DNA from: a virus | IMG/VR virus record: IMGVR_UViG_3300044825_002969 | Coordinates: 1-32,684 of that record | DNA: 32,684 nt | Strand: one strand, 5' to 3' | Shown: positions 3,298-15,361 of the stretch, piece by piece | Numbering within the stretch: position 1 is the first letter of the stretch | Layout: each line of letters starts with the position of its first letter | Notes under the pieces: model-generated | Told to the model about the DNA's origin: nothing | Databases searched by the model: none | What the model saw: the letters and a program-made list of their open reading frames with translations, nothing else | Position numbers and translations under genes: made by a program

Positions 3298-5037
3298 TCA
3301 GGCGACCGCGACGAGCGCGGTCGTGCCGTCGGTGACGGCGAGGCGATGCGACTCGGCGACATCGGCCAGCTGGGTGGCCTGCTCGGCCGTGAGCGTCCCC
3401 AGCAGCGCCCCCACCCGATGCACCGGCTGGTGGGCGTCGTCGCCGATCACGAGCGCGAGCGCCGCCCGCGGCCCGGTGTCGTCGCCAGGGGTGTGCCCGT
3501 CGAGCTGGGCGAGACCGAGCGCGGCCCGGGCGATCTCCAAGCGGCGCAACGGGGTCGGCTGACCGGCCGGCGACATCGCCCACGGCACCCCGGCCGACTG
3601 GGCGTCGCGGATCCACTGGAGCACCTCGGCCTGCTGCTCGGGCGCCAACTGGATCAGCACCCGGCGCTGCCAGTCGACATCGGTCGGTTCGGCCACCGGC
3701 CCGTCATCGGGCGGCGCGGTCAACCGGTGCACCACAGGCGTCTGCGCGTCGGCGCGGCGCTCCGACTCTGCGGCCCGGGCGGCGGACACCGCCGGGTCCT
3801 CGACACCGAACGGCATGTGGTGCTGCGCCTCGACCAGGTCGAGCACACGGACCACCTGCTCGACCTGCGCCGGCGACCACGCACCGGGCCCGCCGTGCAT
3901 CGCCTTCGGTGGTGGCACATCGGCCGGCCACAGCTGCGCCATCAGCGCGAGCGCCCCAGCGTTCGCCTTCACCTCGTCCATCCGGTTGACGAGCCACGCG
4001 ACCCGCGCCTGGTGCAGCACAGCATCGAGCGCCGCGGCGAGAGGGACAGGAGTGGCCGATGGAGCGGTGGAAGAGGAAGGGTTGGCCGCTCCATCGGCCT
4101 GGTCTCCGACGCTGTGAGCCCGCGGCTCATGCACCGGCGACGTGCTCGGGGTGGTGGCCGCGTCCTGCGTTGCCGTGCTGGCCGTGCTGGCCGTGCCACC
4201 ACCCTCGATCTCGACCTGCGCGAGCAGCCCCTTGCGGGACCGCCAGTTGCGCACGGCCATGGCCACCTCGAGCGCCTCGGCGCCCGCTGCGATGTCGAGC
4301 GCGTGCACGTCACACAGCCCCGAACCGGGCTGGACGTGCAGGATCAGCGCCTGGTCGCGGTCGACCTCGGGCATCGGCAACCGCTGGTCCTCGGAGCCGT
4401 TGGCCGCGGCGCCCTGGACGTAGAGGGCGTCGGCGCAGGCGTAGACCGCGAGCTGGATCGCCCAGGCGAGCGCCCCGTACCTCACCGAGGCGCCCGTCTT
4501 GAGGTCGGCGATGAACATGCGGCCGTCGGCAACGCGGCGCAGGGTGAGGTCGGAGGTGCCGGCGATGGTGTGGCGGTCGAGCACCACCATGACCTCGCTC
4601 ATCCCGTCGACGACTTCGTAGCCGGCGGCGGTGATCGCTGCCTGCACGGCGGCGACGTCAGCGGCGTACGTGGCGGGCACCGCCCAGGCGGGGTCGGCGT
4701 GGGCTTTCTCGACCATGGTGTGCAGCGCGGTGCCGAGGTCGCGCCGTGCGGTTGCGCCGCCGGCTTCCTTGGCGCGCTCGCACACCTTGTCGAGCTCGTT
4801 GCGGTCGTCGGGGTCGGCGGCCTGGACGAGCGCGAGGAGGTCGGGGCGCTGGGCGAGACCGATGGCGGTCATCCGGTTGGCCCACTTCATGAGGTTCGAC
4901 GTGTCGTCGAGCGCCTTGGCCACGGTGGTGGCCCGGGTGTAGCCCTGGGGCTTGTTGCCGCCGGGGGGGACGACGAGGTAGCGGCCCCACCGGTCTCGGC
5001 GGGCGTTGTCGCCAGGGGCGTCGAGCTGGATCGTCAC
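3298..5037 (-). CDS. RecB/Cas4-type PD-(D/E)XK exonuclease with long C-terminal extension
   Basis: The first 200 residues carry the Cas4/RecB nuclease signature: GTALHTMVE with His106, AGTSDL with Asp163, ADLKTG with Asp178 and Lys180, and a later Gln195 in AIQLAVY. These bind the metal and cut one strand of linear duplex DNA, so the protein probably serves phage recombination or end processing. No FeS-type cysteine cluster is evident, so it is closer to phage RecB-like exonucleases than to classical Cas4. The total of 579 aa is about twice the usual length. A Ser/Thr/Ala-rich linker near residues 280-330 leads to about 250 C-terminal residues, mostly helical and unassigned. GTG at 5037 overlaps the upstream stop as GTGA. 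Confidence 0.8.
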   Translation of the reverse strand: MTIQLDAPGDNARRDRWGRYLVVPPGGNKPQGYTRATTVAKALDDTSNLMKWANRMTAIGLAQRPDLLALVQAADPDDRNELDKVCERAKEAGGATARRDLGTALHTMVEKAHADPAWAVPATYAADVAAVQAAITAAGYEVVDGMSEVMVVLDRHTIAGTSDLTLRRVADGRMFIADLKTGASVRYGALAWAIQLAVYACADALYVQGAAANGSEDQRLPMPEVDRDQALILHVQPGSGLCDVHALDIAAGAEALEVAMAVRNWRSRKGLLAQVEIEGGGTASTASTATQDAATTPSTSPVHEPRAHSVGDQADGAANPSSSTAPSATPVPLAAALDAVLHQARVAWLVNRMDEVKANAGALALMAQLWPADVPPPKAMHGGPGAWSPAQVEQVVRVLDLVEAQHHMPFGVEDPAVSAARAAESERRADAQTPVVHRLTAPPDDGPVAEPTDVDWQRRVLIQLAPEQQAEVLQWIRDAQSAGVPWAMSPAGQPTPLRRLEIARAALGLAQLDGHTPGDDTGPRAALALVIGDDAHQPVHRVGALLGTLTAEQATQLADVAESHRLAVTDGTTALVAVA

Positions 5038-5354
5038 GACGCACCTCCAGAGCGAGCGCGCCGTTCGACCGAGAAGCGCGTGTTCAACTCGTCCTCGGTG
5101 AGGCTTCGCTCGGTCTCGTCGTAGCGATGCGGCGGCTCGGGCACCGCTTTGTAGACCTCGGGCCGAACCAACTCGGTGAGCGGATCGTTGAGGATGTCCT
5201 GAGCGAGAGTGACCCAGTGCTCCCAGGTCCCCTCGGCGTTGCTGTTGCTGTTGCGTGGCGAGAACGAGGTGAACCAGTCACCCATCCACGGTGTCCAGAC
5301 GAGGCCGCACCGCTTCGCAGCGCCATGAACGATGACCTCTTCGAAGTCGCTCAC
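5034..5354 (-). CDS. Hypothetical protein, 106 aa
   Basis: The GTG start at 5354 overlaps the preceding stop in a GTGA. The protein is rich in aromatic residues (GLVWTPWMGDWFTSFSP; EHWVTL), has a low-complexity SNSNAEG loop, and ends in a charged helix (RSLTEDELNTRFSVERRARS). It is soluble in appearance with no signal peptide. The family is not recognised. Tight coupling to the downstream exonuclease suggests co-translation with it. Confidence 0.6.
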   Translation of the reverse strand: MSDFEEVIVHGAAKRCGLVWTPWMGDWFTSFSPRNSNSNAEGTWEHWVTLAQDILNDPLTELVRPEVYKAVPEPPHRYDETERSLTEDELNTRFSVERRARSGGAS

Positions 5355-5689
5355 AGCGTCACGACCGAGGCTCGGGTGGTGGTGCCGTGCAGGGGCGCGG
5401 CGTCAGGCATCGACGGCGGCTGGCCGAGCGCAGTGTGCACCTCGGCCACGTCGTCGCTGGCGAGCTCGGCGATCAGGTCGAGCGTGCCCTGGCGGATCCG
5501 ACCCGCGATCGCCAGGAGGTTCTCCAGGCGCTCGCGGTCGGTGTCGCCGGCGACGAACACCTTGCCGGCGTCGAACACCGTCGAGTCCTTCTCGAGGAAC
5601 CCGACGTAGACGTAGTGGTCGTTCTTGAGCTGCACCCGCACGTCGTCGGGTGCAGCCTCGTGGATGGAAGGGGGGCACGCATTGGCCAC
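5351..5689 (-). CDS. Hypothetical protein, 112 aa, first gene of the recombination operon
   Basis: The start chosen is GTG at 5689 because AGGAGA lies six bases upstream. A GTG further out at 5716 would place this ribosome site inside the coding sequence. The protein has a beta-rich middle (DVRVQLKNDHYVYVGFL, GKVFVAGD) followed by helices (RERLENLLAIAGRIRQG). No family is recognised. It is the first gene after the 145-bp gap downstream of the small membrane genes, so it may begin a separate transcript. Confidence 0.6.
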   Translation of the reverse strand: MANACPPSIHEAAPDDVRVQLKNDHYVYVGFLEKDSTVFDAGKVFVAGDTDRERLENLLAIAGRIRQGTLDLIAELASDDVAEVHTALGQPPSMPDAAPLHGTTTRASVVTL

Positions 5690-5710
5690 TGGTAGTCTCC
5701 TGGTGTCGAC

Positions 5711-5746
5711 GCCCACCCCGCTCCCAGTCAGAGCAACGGGGTGGGC
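5711..5746. repeat. 10-bp perfect inverted repeat in the gap before the recombination operon
   Basis: GCCCACCCCG at 5711-5720 pairs perfectly with CGGGGTGGGC at 5737-5746 around a 16-base loop. It lies in the noncoding stretch 5690-5834, between the small-membrane-protein genes and the next minus-strand gene. No T-run follows on either strand, so it is not a classical intrinsic terminator. It may act as a weak terminator or leader structure. The rest of the gap is G-rich and shows no convincing gene. Confidence 0.5.
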
Positions 5747-5834
5747 ATTGGTGTTGTGGGGGAGGGGGCCCGAGCCGGCCCCAGCGCTGCACCCGTCGGG
5801 GGGATGGGCAGGTGCAGGGCCGCGGCCCGGGCGG

Positions 5835-5936
5835 TCAGCGACGCGGCTCTGCGTCGTAGGCGTCGGGGAGGCCGCGCACCGCTGCGATCAGCAGCACGGC
5901 GATGGCCAACGTGAGCGTGGCGGCGAGTCGCCTCAT
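5835..5936 (-). CDS. Tiny hydrophobic protein, 33 aa
   Basis: The ATG at 5936 overlaps the stop of the preceding small gene as ATGA, and the frame ends with TGA at 5835-5837. The N terminus is two Arg residues followed by a hydrophobic stretch (LAATLTLAIAVLLIAAV), then a polar tail with Asp and Glu. It could be a single-pass membrane peptide or a secreted micropeptide. It is the last of five coupled membrane genes. Support comes from the coupling rather than from any known family. Confidence 0.5.
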   Translation of the reverse strand: MRRLAATLTLAIAVLLIAAVRGLPDAYDAEPRR

Positions 5937-6052
5937 CGGCGGGACCTCCGTTCGTTGCGGGAGTACAGGAAGGCGCCGACGATGACGGCGACCGAGATCA
6001 CGGCGCCGATGGCGAGGTAGCCGTGGCCGAGCACGAACACGCCCGCGGTCAC
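5933..6052 (-). CDS. Small single-pass membrane protein, 39 aa
   Basis: GTG at 6052 overlaps the upstream stop as GTGA, and the stop overlaps the next ATG. One hydrophobic segment (YLAIGAVISVAVIVGAFLY) is followed by a strongly basic tail (SRNERRSRR). By the positive-inside rule the C terminus should face the cytoplasm. The family is unknown. Confidence 0.6.
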   Translation of the reverse strand: MTAGVFVLGHGYLAIGAVISVAVIVGAFLYSRNERRSRR

Positions 6053-6318
6053 GACTGCACCTTCTTCCGGTCGCGCAGCTCCTCGTCCAGCGCCCCGTAG
6101 GTGAGCGAATCGCAGATGAAGAAGACGACCGTGAACGGCGTGAGGAGCAGGAACCGCCAGTCGACCCAGAGACCTGCCACGACCAGCGCCGGCGTTCCCC
6201 AGAGCCAGGCGTGGCACCATGCGCGCTCTCGCCACATCTTCCGGCGGACCTTCGCGTCAGGCCAGTCGGCCCACCGTTCGCGCAAGGTCTCGGACAGCGA
6301 CTTCTTGGGAGCGGTCAC
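6049..6318 (-). CDS. Small two-helix membrane protein, 89 aa
   Basis: The GTG start at 6318 gives a GTGA overlap with the gene before it. About 40 basic and charged N-terminal residues (PKKSLSETLRERWADWP, then AKVRRKMWRERAW) are followed by two hydrophobic segments, around LWGTPALVVAGLWV and RFLLLTPFTVVFFICDSL. The C terminus is charged (DEELRDRKKVQS). Both termini are probably cytoplasmic. It is the longest of the small membrane proteins in the chain and has no recognised family. Confidence 0.65.
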   Translation of the reverse strand: MTAPKKSLSETLRERWADWPDAKVRRKMWRERAWCHAWLWGTPALVVAGLWVDWRFLLLTPFTVVFFICDSLTYGALDEELRDRKKVQS

Positions 6319-6485
6319 TGGTCGCCTCCGGGCATCCGGTACTCGGCGAGCTCTTCGCGCTCCGGGGCCAGCCCGACCCACGCCAACACCGCGGCCGACA
6401 CGGCCAGGGCGACGAAGGCCAGCGGGTGCTGGGTCGTCACGTAGACGACGGTGAGCACGGTGGTGACCGCGAGCAGCCGGATCAC
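6315..6485 (-). CDS. Small membrane protein, 56 aa
   Basis: The frame runs from GTG at 6483-6485 to TGA at 6315-6317, with four-base overlaps on both sides. Two hydrophobic segments (IRLLAVTTVLTVVYVT and LAFVALAVSAAVLAWVGLA) are separated by TQHP, and the polar C-terminal tail is PEREELAEYRMPGGDQ. The layout is that of a small hairpin membrane protein. Overlap on both sides makes translation likely even though no family is known. Confidence 0.6.
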   Translation of the reverse strand: MIRLLAVTTVLTVVYVTTQHPLAFVALAVSAAVLAWVGLAPEREELAEYRMPGGDQ

Positions 6486-6577
6486 GACGCCACCGGCGGG
6501 AACAGGATGACGAAGACGGTGGCGCCGAACATGATGCCGGCGGCCAGCAGGGTGAGGGTGCGGAGCAGTCGCGTCAT
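6482..6577 (-). CDS. Tiny single-pass membrane protein, 31 aa
   Basis: ATG at 6575-6577 overlaps the stop of the excisionase-like gene (ATGA), and the TGA at 6482-6484 overlaps the next GTG. The peptide is a short basic N terminus (MTRLLRT) followed by one hydrophobic helix (LTLLAAGIMFGATVFVILF). It is the first of five consecutive small membrane genes. Confidence 0.55.
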   Translation of the reverse strand: MTRLLRTLTLLAAGIMFGATVFVILFPPVAS

Positions 6578-6888
6578 GCTGCGTCCTGGTCGAGTCGGAC
6601 CACGGCGGCGATCTGGTCGGTGGTCGCTGCGGAGTCGAGCTCGAACAGCGACAGCGTCGAGATCACGACCCGGGAGCCGGGCGTCGCGTTGTCGCCGAGG
6701 TCCATGCGGCGGATCCGTCCGTCGCGGAGCAGCTGGCGGACCTTGTCGTCGCCGACCGACAGCAGGCGGGCCGCTTCGGTGATCGACACGCCGACCGGGT
6801 ACGGCGCCGGGCGGGTGACGCCGGCAGCGGCGAGGCCGGCTTCGATGCCGCGGGCGACGGCGCCCTCGAGGAGCGTCTCGAAGCTCAT
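6574..6888 (-). CDS. Excisionase-like DNA-binding protein, 104 aa
   Basis: ATG at 6888 overlaps the Cro-like stop as ATGA. Residues 34-64 read as a MerR/excisionase-type winged helix: SITEAARLLSVGDDKVRQL followed by RDGRIRRMDLG and a basic turn (GSRVV). Such proteins bend attachment DNA and turn an integrase towards excision. Its place directly after the Cro-like gene at the head of the early lytic operon fits that role. A transcriptional regulator of the same fold is the alternative. The N-terminal 30 residues are predicted helical and unassigned. Confidence 0.7.
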   Translation of the reverse strand: MSFETLLEGAVARGIEAGLAAAGVTRPAPYPVGVSITEAARLLSVGDDKVRQLLRDGRIRRMDLGDNATPGSRVVISTLSLFELDSAATTDQIAAVVRLDQDAA

Positions 6889-7136
6889 GCGAGGTCTTCC
6901 ATCGGTGGCCAGGGGAACAGGTCGGCGGGGGTTGTGCCGAGCGCCCGTGCGAGGACGACCTTGGTGTCGTCTCGGGGGAGGGCTCGCCCGCTCTCGACGA
7001 GGCTGACACCGGCCTGGGTCATCCCGGCGAGTTCGGCCACCCGGGCCTGGCTGAGGCCCAAGGCCCGGCGGCGGGCCGTCACCCGCGAAGCCCAATCGTC
7101 AGCGAGGCGCTTTGAGGTCCGGGGGCCGTCGTTCAC
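6885..7136 (-). CDS. Cro-like helix-turn-helix regulator
   Basis: This 83-residue protein is almost entirely one HTH_3 (Cro/C1-type) domain, about residues 16-73: ARRRALGLSQARVAELAG, then the recognition helix MTQAGVSLVESGRALP, and the helical end LARALGTTPADLF. The GTG start at 7136 lies about seven bases after a TATAAC -10 box, so the mRNA is probably leaderless. It diverges from the repressor gene across shared operators and heads the early lytic operon. It is the likely lytic-side switch protein. Confidence 0.85.
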   Translation of the reverse strand: MNDGPRTSKRLADDWASRVTARRRALGLSQARVAELAGMTQAGVSLVESGRALPRDDTKVVLARALGTTPADLFPWPPMEDLA

Positions 7137-7148
7137 AACACTCGTTAT
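7135..7148. promoter_or_regulatory. Operator-like dyad 1 (ACAAC-N4-GTTAT)
   Basis: ACAAC at 7135-7139 and GTTAT at 7144-7148 form a dyad with one mismatch from perfect symmetry. It covers the Cro-like start codon and the -10 box of its promoter, so a protein bound here would block leftward transcription. The architecture matches two further dyads at 7169 and 7209. Confidence 0.5.
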
Positions 7149-7172
7149 ACCACCTTCGTTGTGGCGCTACAA
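7144..7172 (-). promoter_or_regulatory. Leftward early promoter
   Basis: On the minus strand TTGTAG (7167-7172) and TATAAC (7144-7149) are separated by 17 bases, a good sigma70/HrdB-type fit in the -10 box. The predicted start of transcription, about 7137, is at or next to the GTG of the Cro-like gene, giving a leaderless transcript. Dyads 1 and 2 overlap its -10 and -35 boxes. Confidence 0.6.
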
Positions 7173-7182
7173 CCCCTGTTGT
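7169..7182. promoter_or_regulatory. Operator-like dyad 2 (ACAAC-N4-GTTGT)
   Basis: ACAAC at 7169-7173 and GTTGT at 7178-7182 form a perfect dyad with a four-base centre. It lies between the -35 boxes of the two divergent promoters. Its left half also pairs with GTTGT at 7158-7162 in a second, overlapping 16-bp imperfect palindrome, which could allow a second binding register. Confidence 0.6.
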
Positions 7183-7207
7183 GAAATCACGTCGCTGAAA
7201 CTACAGA
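7179..7207 (+). promoter_or_regulatory. Possible rightward promoter for the repressor operon
   Basis: TTGTGA (7179-7184) and TACAGA (7202-7207) are separated by 17 bases. The -10 match is weak, so this is tentative; CACAAT at 7208 is an alternative -10. Transcription would begin about 7214, inside dyad 3 and about 24 bases before the repressor ATG. Confidence 0.35.
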
Positions 7208-7208
7208 C

Positions 7209-7222
7209 ACAATCAAGATTGT
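7209..7222. promoter_or_regulatory. Operator-like dyad 3 (ACAAT-N4-ATTGT)
   Basis: ACAAT at 7209-7213 and ATTGT at 7218-7222 form a perfect dyad, which extends to CACAAT-N4-ATTGTG at 7208-7223. It lies just upstream of the repressor start codon, a position suited to autoregulation. The sequence varies slightly from dyads 1 and 2 (T for C), as expected if the sites differ in affinity. Confidence 0.55.
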
Positions 7223-7237
7223 GGGAAGATCCACCAC

Positions 7238-7642
7238 ATGTCGACCGACACTCCAGCCATGTGGCTCGCGGCGTTGCTCGACGAACAGATGCACCAGCAA
7301 CGGCTGACCCAGGTCGACATCGCCGACCGAGTAGGCGTGTCCCAGGCAGCCGTCAGTCGCTGGGTCATAGGCAAGGGGCTGCCGAAACCGGGGCAGGCCG
7401 TTCGGCTGGCCTGGGCGCTCGGACTCGAGCCGCTCAGCTTCATGGGCGAGCTGTGGCCAGAAGTCGCTGAAGCGCTAGCGGATCTGTCCGGCGGCGCGCT
7501 GAACGACTCTCTCGAGCAGCTCGGGGAGGCCGACTCCGAGTACGACGACGAGGTCGCAGCAGCGGCTGACACGGGTCGCCCCGGACCCCGAGGCCGGCGG
7601 TTCAACCGTCCGTCGCCGGAGCCTGAACCCGAGGGGCCGTGA
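7238..7642 (+). CDS. HTH phage repressor, 134 aa
   Basis: Residues 18-66 form an HTH_3 domain: LTQVDIADRVGVSQAAVSRW followed by GKGLPKPGQAVRLAWALGLEP. A short helical region and a Pro-, Glu- and Gly-rich disordered tail (about 100-134) follow, with no LexA-type peptidase domain. The next gene is an ImmA/IrrE-type metallopeptidase. Induction is therefore likely to use proteolysis of this repressor by that enzyme, as in ICEBs1, and not RecA-dependent self-cleavage. The gene diverges from the Cro-like gene across three dyads. The ATG at 7238 has no strong ribosome site. Confidence 0.85.
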   Translation: MSTDTPAMWLAALLDEQMHQQRLTQVDIADRVGVSQAAVSRWVIGKGLPKPGQAVRLAWALGLEPLSFMGELWPEVAEALADLSGGALNDSLEQLGEADSEYDDEVAAAADTGRPGPRGRRFNRPSPEPEPEGP

Positions 7643-8830: not shown

Positions 8831-8873
8831 GACACGGAAGAGGTCCACGGTTCAAGTCCGTGTACGCCCACCA
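8831..8873 (+). other. attP: attP core: 3' part of a tRNA-Val(GAC)
   Basis: The stretch reads as the 3' half of a tRNA. The anticodon GAC with AC begins at 8831. The anticodon-stem 3' strand GGAAG and variable loop AGGTC follow. The T-arm is CACGG/TTCAAGT/CCGTG (8846-8862), then acceptor strand TACGCCC, discriminator A (8870) and CCA (8871-8873). No matching GGGCGTA acceptor strand or D-arm lies upstream, so it is not a functional tRNA. It is the identity segment that restores the host tRNA after integration. The core begins within the anticodon loop, the usual crossover region for tyrosine integrases. Confidence 0.75.
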
Positions 8874-13021: not shown

Positions 13022-13410
13022 GGCGCCACCTCCACAGCGACCCGGGCCCGCACCGTCCACTTGTGCCGCATGATCACCTTGAGCAGCCCGTTGACCTCAC
13101 ACTGCGCCTCGATCCAGTAGTCGCCCGGCTCGATCGTCGCGGTCACCGCCTTCGGGATCGACCACTTGAGCACCGGGGTCGCCGCCTCGAGGTCGGTGCC
13201 GGTCGTCGAGATGTTCGCCGTCACGCCCTCCGCCGTCACCGACGTGGCCACCAGCACGGCGTCCTCGGTGCGGCCGTCGCGCAGCTGGATGAGCAGCGAC
13301 GCGTTGTCGTACGTCGACGAGCCCGTCGTGCGGGTCCACTCGCGCTCCCAGTCCTCGCCGCGCGTGTCGGACCACTCGGCGGCCTCGGCCTGGGCCGCGG
13401 TGAGCGCCAT
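13018..13410 (-). CDS. Putative baseplate or fibre-attachment protein, 130 aa
   Basis: The start at 13410 shares a base with the holin stop (TGATG). After a helical N terminus (ALTAAQAEAAEWSDTRGEDW) the protein is one beta-sandwich-like unit: SLLIQLRDGRTEDAVLVAT, then TAEGVTANIST, then KAVTATIEPGDYWIEAQ and RHKWTVRARVAVEV. The pattern resembles the small Ig-like or BppU-type adaptors that precede fibre genes in many phages. It probably links the fibre to the tail tip. Confidence 0.6.
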   Translation of the reverse strand: MALTAAQAEAAEWSDTRGEDWEREWTRTTGSSTYDNASLLIQLRDGRTEDAVLVATSVTAEGVTANISTTGTDLEAATPVLKWSIPKAVTATIEPGDYWIEAQCEVNGLLKVIMRHKWTVRARVAVEVAP

Positions 13411-13694
13411 CAGCCGACGCCCTTGTGCTGGTCGTAGGCGTTCTGCGCCGCCGAGACGAGGAACACGAGCGCGCCGGTCCCACCGACGAGCAGCGCTGCG
13501 GCACGTCCCGGGATGTCGACGCCCGCCTGGGTGAGCACCGCGAGCGCGCCGGGCACGGCGAGCAGCACGGCGACGATCACCTGCACGGCGGTCCGCCAGG
13601 TGCGCCGCTTCGGGCCCGGACCGGCCGGCATGACCTCGACGGTGACCGGCTCGCCGATCACCGGTCCGGTGTAGGGGGGTGGGGTGTCGGACAT
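13410..13694 (-). CDS. Two-helix holin
   Basis: ATG at 13694 follows AAGGAG with good spacing. The 94-aa protein has a Pro-rich cytoplasmic N terminus and a basic stretch (PKRRTWR). Two transmembrane helices follow (about 35-56, AVQVIVAVLLAVPGALAV, and 64-84, RAAALLVGGTGALVFLVSA), then a short polar end. Two helices within about 95 aa, next to an endolysin, is the class II holin layout common in actinophages. It would form the pore that releases the endolysin at the end of the lytic cycle. Confidence 0.75.
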   Translation of the reverse strand: MSDTPPPYTGPVIGEPVTVEVMPAGPGPKRRTWRTAVQVIVAVLLAVPGALAVLTQAGVDIPGRAAALLVGGTGALVFLVSAAQNAYDQHKGVG

Positions 13695-14626: not shown

Positions 14627-15361
14627 TTAGGCCTTGGCGTCGACGGTGATGTCGAACCGGAGCTGCGACGCGATCGGGCTGCCCGAGAGGTCCTCGAACG
14701 GGACACCGAGGTCCTCTCGGAGCACCTTGATCTTGGCCTTGTTGGCCTCGTTCGTGGGCCGGTCGTTGACCCGCACCCGGAACGGCGTGCCCTCGTAGTA
14801 GAGCCACCACGTCTTGTCGTGGTGGTAGACGAGCTTCATCGGGTCCTCCTCGATGGGGGGTGGTGGGACGGTGACGGGCACCTCTGCGGGCCCGTGGCCG
14901 AGGTGTGACGCTGCGAGCATCGCTGTGATCTGCCGGGCGTCGGATGGCCAGCCGCGGAACTCGAAGTGCATGCCGTCGGGCCGGCGCCATGCGCCGCCGT
15001 GGTCGAACCCGTACGCGTTGAACAGGTCGATGATCCACTGGGGCGGGTTGCGGTGGACGCCCATCGGGTACTCCTGGGCGTCGATGTCGATCGCGAGGCC
15101 CCAGCTGTGGTTCGACGCGACGTTCCGACCGCGGATCGGCCGGTTGCTGTAGCCCCACTCGTCGTCGACGTCGTCCGGTCCGTGGTCGAACCAGTAGCCG
15201 CGCCGCTCGACCTCGTTGACGACGAACCGGACGATCGGGGCAATCAGCTCGTGGACCTGCCACTTGGCCCCGGAGCGGGTGGCGCGCACCCACTCCATCT
15301 CTGAGGAGCGGTCGACGGGCCAGCCCTGGCCCCAGCCGCGCAGGTTCGCCGGCGCGGTCAC
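14627..15361 (-). CDS. M15-family peptidase endolysin
   Basis: The 244-aa protein carries the M15 (VanY/L-Ala-D-Glu peptidase) motifs. SNHSWGLAIDID fits SxHxxGxAxD with zinc ligands His85 and Asp92. DGMHFEFRG supplies the catalytic Asp129 region and the third ligand His132. It should cut peptide cross-links in peptidoglycan. A Pro-rich linker (VPVTVPPPPIEED) at about 161-173 leads to a 70-residue C-terminal domain (MKLVYHHDKTWWLYYEG and following) that may bind the cell wall. GTG at 15361 overlaps the preceding stop as GTGA. With no signal peptide, export relies on the holin two genes downstream. Confidence 0.88.
   Translation of the reverse strand: MTAPANLRGWGQGWPVDRSSEMEWVRATRSGAKWQVHELIAPIVRFVVNEVERRGYWFDHGPDDVDDEWGYSNRPIRGRNVASNHSWGLAIDIDAQEYPMGVHRNPPQWIIDLFNAYGFDHGGAWRRPDGMHFEFRGWPSDARQITAMLAASHLGHGPAEVPVTVPPPPIEEDPMKLVYHHDKTWWLYYEGTPFRVRVNDRPTNEANKAKIKVLREDLGVPFEDLSGSPIASQLRFDITVDAKA

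Follow-up and report, generated by a model that had tools for sequence, protein, structure and literature searches.

A chain of five tiny overlapping genes with predicted membrane helices behind the Cro-like and excisionase genes of a temperate actinobacterial phage

Early small membrane proteins in described phages

In cluster K mycobacteriophages, a small transmembrane (TM) gene (55–58 aa) that overlaps its neighbours follows the genes of the repressor, Cro and excisionase, and genes for WhiB and a Cas4-family nuclease come later. The order in mycobacteriophage Amelie is repressor, cro, excise, gp41, gp42 and gp43, in which gp43 encodes a protein of 58 aa bearing MTPAPYCLPCNRHHVGDC (Cys/His-rich) and then a hydrophobic stretch. 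One report describes gp43 as a single-TM protein, highly toxic when overexpressed and likely an early gene, and gp50 of Hammy as its toxic relative (PMC11797047), and another describes Adephagia gp47, located in the same slot, as not toxic (PMC11373665). Gordonia phage Upyo has two adjacent genes for small hydrophobic proteins (66 and 67; 84 and 31 aa), which are annotated as membrane proteins and overlap by 4 nt. In Pseudomonas phage Fc02, expression of an early-operon gene beside the Cro-like ner leads to phage exclusion, and the product of this gene is found in the insoluble fraction; its homologue in Ps56 seems to block DNA injection (PMC9936078). As far as the available portions of these three reports extend, no multi-gene chain like the one presented here is described in them (PMC11797047, PMC11373665, PMC9936078).

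The locus of this study was found in a window of 32.7 kb, which is the whole virus record IMGVR_UViG_3300044825_002969 of a temperate actinobacterial phage. Having small TM genes within a few genes behind cro and excisionase, it belongs by position to the actinophage group with early small TM proteins in this slot. It shares the order of repressor, cro, excisionase and overlapping small TM gene with the cluster K phages, but has five TM genes instead of one, and gp43 bears a Cys/His-rich N-terminus; the likeness is one of slot and membrane character. When gp43 was compared by tblastn with a phage collection from which the window was absent, only Mycobacterium phages were matched, in a search whose low-complexity filter masks TM stretches. 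Genes 66 and 67 of Upyo also resemble the chain in small size, hydrophobicity and 4-nt overlap, but they adjoin a gene for a Holliday junction resolvase and differ in sequence. Gene 10 of Fc02 and Ps56, the exclusion gene, is likewise an early gene beside the Cro-like ner with an insoluble product, but it is a single gene in another type of phage and is likened to the chain by position and character.

Layout of the chain and its conserved core

In the original prediction, five tiny linked genes (o1–o5) had been placed directly behind Cro-like and excisionase-like genes, and this description was confirmed: coordinates, lengths, starts and overlaps were all correct (Table 1), the Cro-like gene and the excisionase gene both matched their families above cut-off, and the latter belongs to TIGR01764 (29.2 bits, cut-off 28.8). 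Every junction from o1 to o5, and also that between the excisionase gene and o1, is a 4-nt overlap (ATGA or GTGA). The best 19-residue Kyte-Doolittle means were 2.4, 2.4, 1.7, 2.35 and 2.15 for o1 to o5, respectively, with one hydrophobic segment in o1, o4 and o5 and two in o2 and o3, of which the second was weaker (1.46 and 1.16, respectively). Helix topology was judged by eye with the positive-inside rule. Third-position GC of o1–o5 was 0.85–0.95, the same as in the neighbouring genes, and GGAGG-like ribosome sites for o3 and o5 were located within the tail of the preceding gene, with weaker ones for o1 and o4. The longest 4-nt-linked run of small TM ORFs in the window was five on the minus strand and one on the plus strand; in Markov-shuffled windows (n = 60) it was 0–2 and never five.

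Table 1. Positions of the chain, its neighbours and the counterparts in the relative L002 (window coordinates unless L002 is given)
Feature	Position	Strand	Properties
Divergent HTH gene, presumed immunity repressor	7238–7642	plus	weak HTH-family matches
Cro-like HTH gene	6885–7136	minus	83 aa, GTG start; HTH_31/HTH_3 above Pfam cut-off; opens the early lytic operon
Excisionase gene	6574–6888	minus	104 aa; 4-nt overlap with Cro-like gene and o1
o1	6482–6577	minus	31 aa, ATG start; one TM, N-in predicted; begins MTRLLRT
o2	6315–6485	minus	56 aa, GTG start; two TM, both ends predicted inside
o3	6049–6318	minus	89 aa, GTG start; basic N-terminus, then two TM
o4	5933–6052	minus	39 aa, GTG start; one TM, Arg-rich C-terminus, C-in predicted
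o5	5835–5936	minus	33 aa, ATG start; one TM, N-in predicted
Gap after chain	5717–5834	minus	118 nt; GC-rich stem-loops, continuing into the leader of the next gene
GC-rich hairpin	5711–5746		perfect 10-bp stem, 16-nt loop
Downstream conserved gene, function not assigned	5351–5716	minus	47% to its L002 relative; present in L090 and, weakly, in L003/L019
Cas4/RecB-like exonuclease	3298–5037	minus	PHROG 466, E 1.4e-61; anchor for finding relatives
Holin candidate	13410–13694		94-aa hydrophobic ORF; no family match
Peptidase_M15_4 endolysin gene	14627–15361		near the holin candidate
o2 orthologue	L002:4984–5175		63 aa, 46% identity
o4 orthologue	L002:5270–5362		30 aa, 57% identity
o5 orthologue	L002:5359–5466		35 aa, 52% identity
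GC-rich hairpin	L002:5541–5574		at the place matching window 5711–5746

A distant relative, L002, was found via its exonuclease (73% identical). Its own chain consists of four small TM ORFs, likewise linked by 4-nt overlaps (63, 33, 30 and 35 aa), in which o2, o4 and o5 recur in the same order, followed by relatives of the downstream gene and the exonuclease. The scores of these three against L002 were reached by 0 of 1000 shuffles that kept the hydrophobic pattern (p 0.001 each). The 33-aa gene of L002 matched o1 weakly (shuffle p 0.009) and in a different order, and no counterpart of o3 was found in L002. The original prediction had staked itself on the frames and their order being kept in relatives, and it withstood this check, with o2, o4 and o5 as the conserved core; o1 and o3 are variable and not securely conserved. 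Because three genes recur in order in this distant relative and other actinophages fill the same slot, the evidence supports o1–o5 as real genes in an early lytic position that encode membrane proteins.

At the level of single genes, a degenerate pattern for o2 matched the L002 contig only, and a profile search with o2 in the L090, L051, L002, L003 and L019 records gave a match in L002 only. BLAST of o2 and its L002 orthologue against phages, and of o3 against viral contigs and phages, returned nothing, an absence that low-complexity masking makes weak evidence. Genome contigs were searched with the exonuclease for a prophage, and none was found. The tail of o2 is EREELAEYRMPGGDQ, similar to that of L003/L019 (LAKYRHPGSQ), and the tail of o5, LPDxxDxxP, is conserved. 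The PGG ending of o2 was rejected as a conserved motif by itself; the same codons form the GGAGG site of o3 in the window. In L002, the HTH gene is followed by a methyltransferase-like and a nuclease-like gene (3421–4987) before the tiny genes begin, and the window has neither.

Downstream of the chain, the gap and the leader of the next gene contain the hairpin at 5711–5746, just before the ribosome site of that gene, and a second, larger stem-loop directly 3′ of o5 (folding z −2.2 and −3.5), and the corresponding 130-nt gap of L002 has similar stem-loops. These structures may mark a site of RNA control at the boundary of the chain with the genes that follow. The true start of the downstream gene is probably GTG 5689 and not 5716, as judged both by an AGGAG site and by the alignment with L002; its structure prediction was poor (mean pLDDT 62, five sequences). 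At the upstream end, an imperfect inverted repeat and direct repeats, operator-like in arrangement, lie between the divergent repressor-like and Cro-like genes (7132–7185), TATAAC is located a few nucleotides 5′ of the Cro-like start, and the Cro-like gene may be leaderless. A simple scan for sigma-70 promoters and terminators found none in 5000–7400. Elsewhere in the window, the stretch at ~8837–8872, just before the integrase gene, resembles the 3′ end of a tRNA gene and is likely the attP core.

The slot in related viral loci

The slot was surveyed in ~100 viral loci, metagenomic ones together with the window, which were collected by a degenerate exonuclease DNA pattern and each of which encodes a related exonuclease. 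In 86 of 100 upstream regions, one or more small TM ORFs overlapped a neighbour, a count that is approximate, as are the others of the survey, since it comes from one heuristic gene caller and from loci that are related and partly redundant. The window alone had five TM ORFs, and L002 alone had four; L090 apparently has two small hydrophobic genes and L003/L019 one, and most other relatives have one or two small TM proteins that look unrelated. Three layouts were recurrent: that of the window, L002, L003, L019 and L090; a pair of a ~57-aa two-TM and a ~30-aa one-TM protein, which overlaps a RusA-like resolvase gene (PHROG 244) and usually follows a gene for a Cys/His finger protein; and one ~90-aa two-TM protein on its own, with the C-terminus ARxxHPT. 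Excisionase-like HTH genes were seen upstream of the slot in several loci. Metagenomic relatives such as L014, L064, L041 and L071 share with the window the slot upstream of a related exonuclease and the short overlaps, but have one or two genes, whose homology to o1–o5 is not demonstrable.

HP[TSGA] occurred within the last 16 residues of 12/88 non-redundant TM proteins, 10/18 finger proteins and 5/320 others. A C-terminal ARxxHP[TSG] or HP[STA]N was observed on TM proteins in one group of loci (L041, L071, L073 and others), and the same motif on Cys/His finger proteins in another (L014, L058, L062, L075 and others). The finger and two TM are fused in L065 and L068, and L028 combines finger, HPS motif and two TM in one protein, with the motif between the finger and TM parts. 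Upstream of the exonuclease of L033, about seven small ORFs in 8-nt overlaps were observed, which resemble a tandem gene family (most begin MAD, and several end EARRG or similar), and a similar run with 8-nt overlaps was present in L104.

We regard it as unlikely that the slot from excisionase to the recombination genes serves temperate actinophages in general as an early membrane module that evolves fast, in which interchangeable small TM families would share the partner-binding tail ARxxHP[TSG], and which would be expanded here to a five-part complex on one conserved host target.

Possible roles of the chain

The reading that we favour, with a probability of about 0.4, is that o1–o5 are genuine early lytic genes and form a block of tiny cytoplasmic-membrane proteins for host takeover. 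Upon loss of the repressor, one leftward message would carry cro, xis and o1–o5, and the stop-start overlaps would hand translation from gene to gene, by which the peptides would be made together at the onset of the lytic cycle. In the membrane, the end facing inside would be the N-terminus in o1 and o5, the Arg-rich C-terminus in o4, and both termini in the hairpins of o2 and o3; the core (o2, o4 and o5) would then bind and alter a host membrane-associated process, with o1 and o3 as variable additions. Consistent with this reading are the slot itself, behind the Cro-like gene and a confirmed excisionase and divergent from the repressor-like gene, a chain longer than expected by chance, the retention of the core in L002 despite different genes just upstream, and the occurrence of a coupled small TM gene in the slot of 86 of 100 regions, with sequences that vary between phage groups, as with host-facing proteins. 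The reported toxicity of Amelie gp43 at the same place would also fit as an analogy of slot and membrane character, but toxicity upon overexpression need not reflect the natural role, and the non-toxic Adephagia gp47 in the same slot argues against takeover.

A multi-part membrane complex of o1–o5 is possible. The multi-part device of the original prediction is more than the evidence supports: three genes are conserved together as a core, yet one or two such genes suffice in other phages. Since o1 and o3 are not securely conserved and the relatives mostly have one or two genes (L090 two, L003/L019 one), five parts are not a general requirement.

The main rival, to which we give clearly less weight, is dedicated superinfection exclusion, in which the peptides would keep the DNA of a second phage from entering the cell soon after infection begins. 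T4 Imm acts in this way, and small early membrane proteins of variable sequence would suit such a role. Known actinophage defence and exclusion systems are mostly expressed in lysogens and not from the early lytic operon, which counts against exclusion here. The ner-adjacent early gene of Fc02 that excludes phages, and the apparent block of DNA injection by its Ps56 homologue, point the other way (PMC9936078). No sequence link of o1–o5 to any exclusion protein emerged from the Pfam, PHROGs, NCBIfam and PADLOC searches; in these profile searches o1–o5 matched no family above cut-off, as the original prediction had held.

It is improbable that the chain anchors the replication or recombination of phage DNA to the membrane, with cytoplasmic tails tethering the exonuclease and resolvase machinery. 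Such tethering has a model in p16.7 of phi29, a membrane anchor of phage DNA replication. The exonuclease is encoded downstream of the slot, in many relatives the slot directly overlaps the RusA-like resolvase gene, with the same join in Upyo, and basic tails ending in ARxxHPT are found in many relatives; in the window, however, the exonuclease comes only after the structured 118-nt gap and two genes, and o1–o5 have no DNA-binding domain.

Quite improbable is an anti-defence role, in which the peptides would disarm a host defence that acts at the membrane, for example a pore-forming or TM effector. Early timing would suit it, and o2 offers a lead in its sub-threshold resemblance to the SLATT two-TM effector domain (Pfam PF18181, E 0.021, 15.3 of 26.3 bits; NCBIfam NF033634, E 0.010, 15.8 of 41 bits). 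Both scores are below cut-off, however, the L002 orthologue of o2 had no match in Pfam, SLATT included, and PADLOC defence models gave no match to o1–o5 up to E 0.1. The SLATT, spanin, DUF2061 and FixS matches were all dropped as below cut-off.

We consider it very improbable that o1–o5 are accessory holin- or spanin-like lysis proteins: they are small TM proteins and o4 gave a non-significant match to a PHROG Rz-like spanin (E 0.45), but no significant holin or spanin PHROG match was found among o1–o5, their position is early and not late, and the likely lysis cassette is elsewhere (13.4–15.4 kb). The claim that the holins lie at 13.4 kb is plausible from the hydrophobic ORF near the endolysin gene, although this ORF matches no family. 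A lack of coherent function, with ORFs that arose by chance or are remnants preserved by translation coupling, would fit the insecure conservation of o1 and o3, but a run beyond that in the shuffles, the ribosome sites and three co-linear orthologues make this hardly credible.

Tiny membrane proteins without an assigned function abound in phage genomes. The chain of o1–o5 is a fresh form of the already known, mostly uncharacterised early small TM proteins of actinophages; in this slot, order, frames and neighbours persist while the sequences diverge, and a counterpart in an isolated phage has already been reported to be highly toxic to the host. The five genes therefore constitute a defined, testable set of candidate early takeover or exclusion proteins, with the three-gene core as the starting point.
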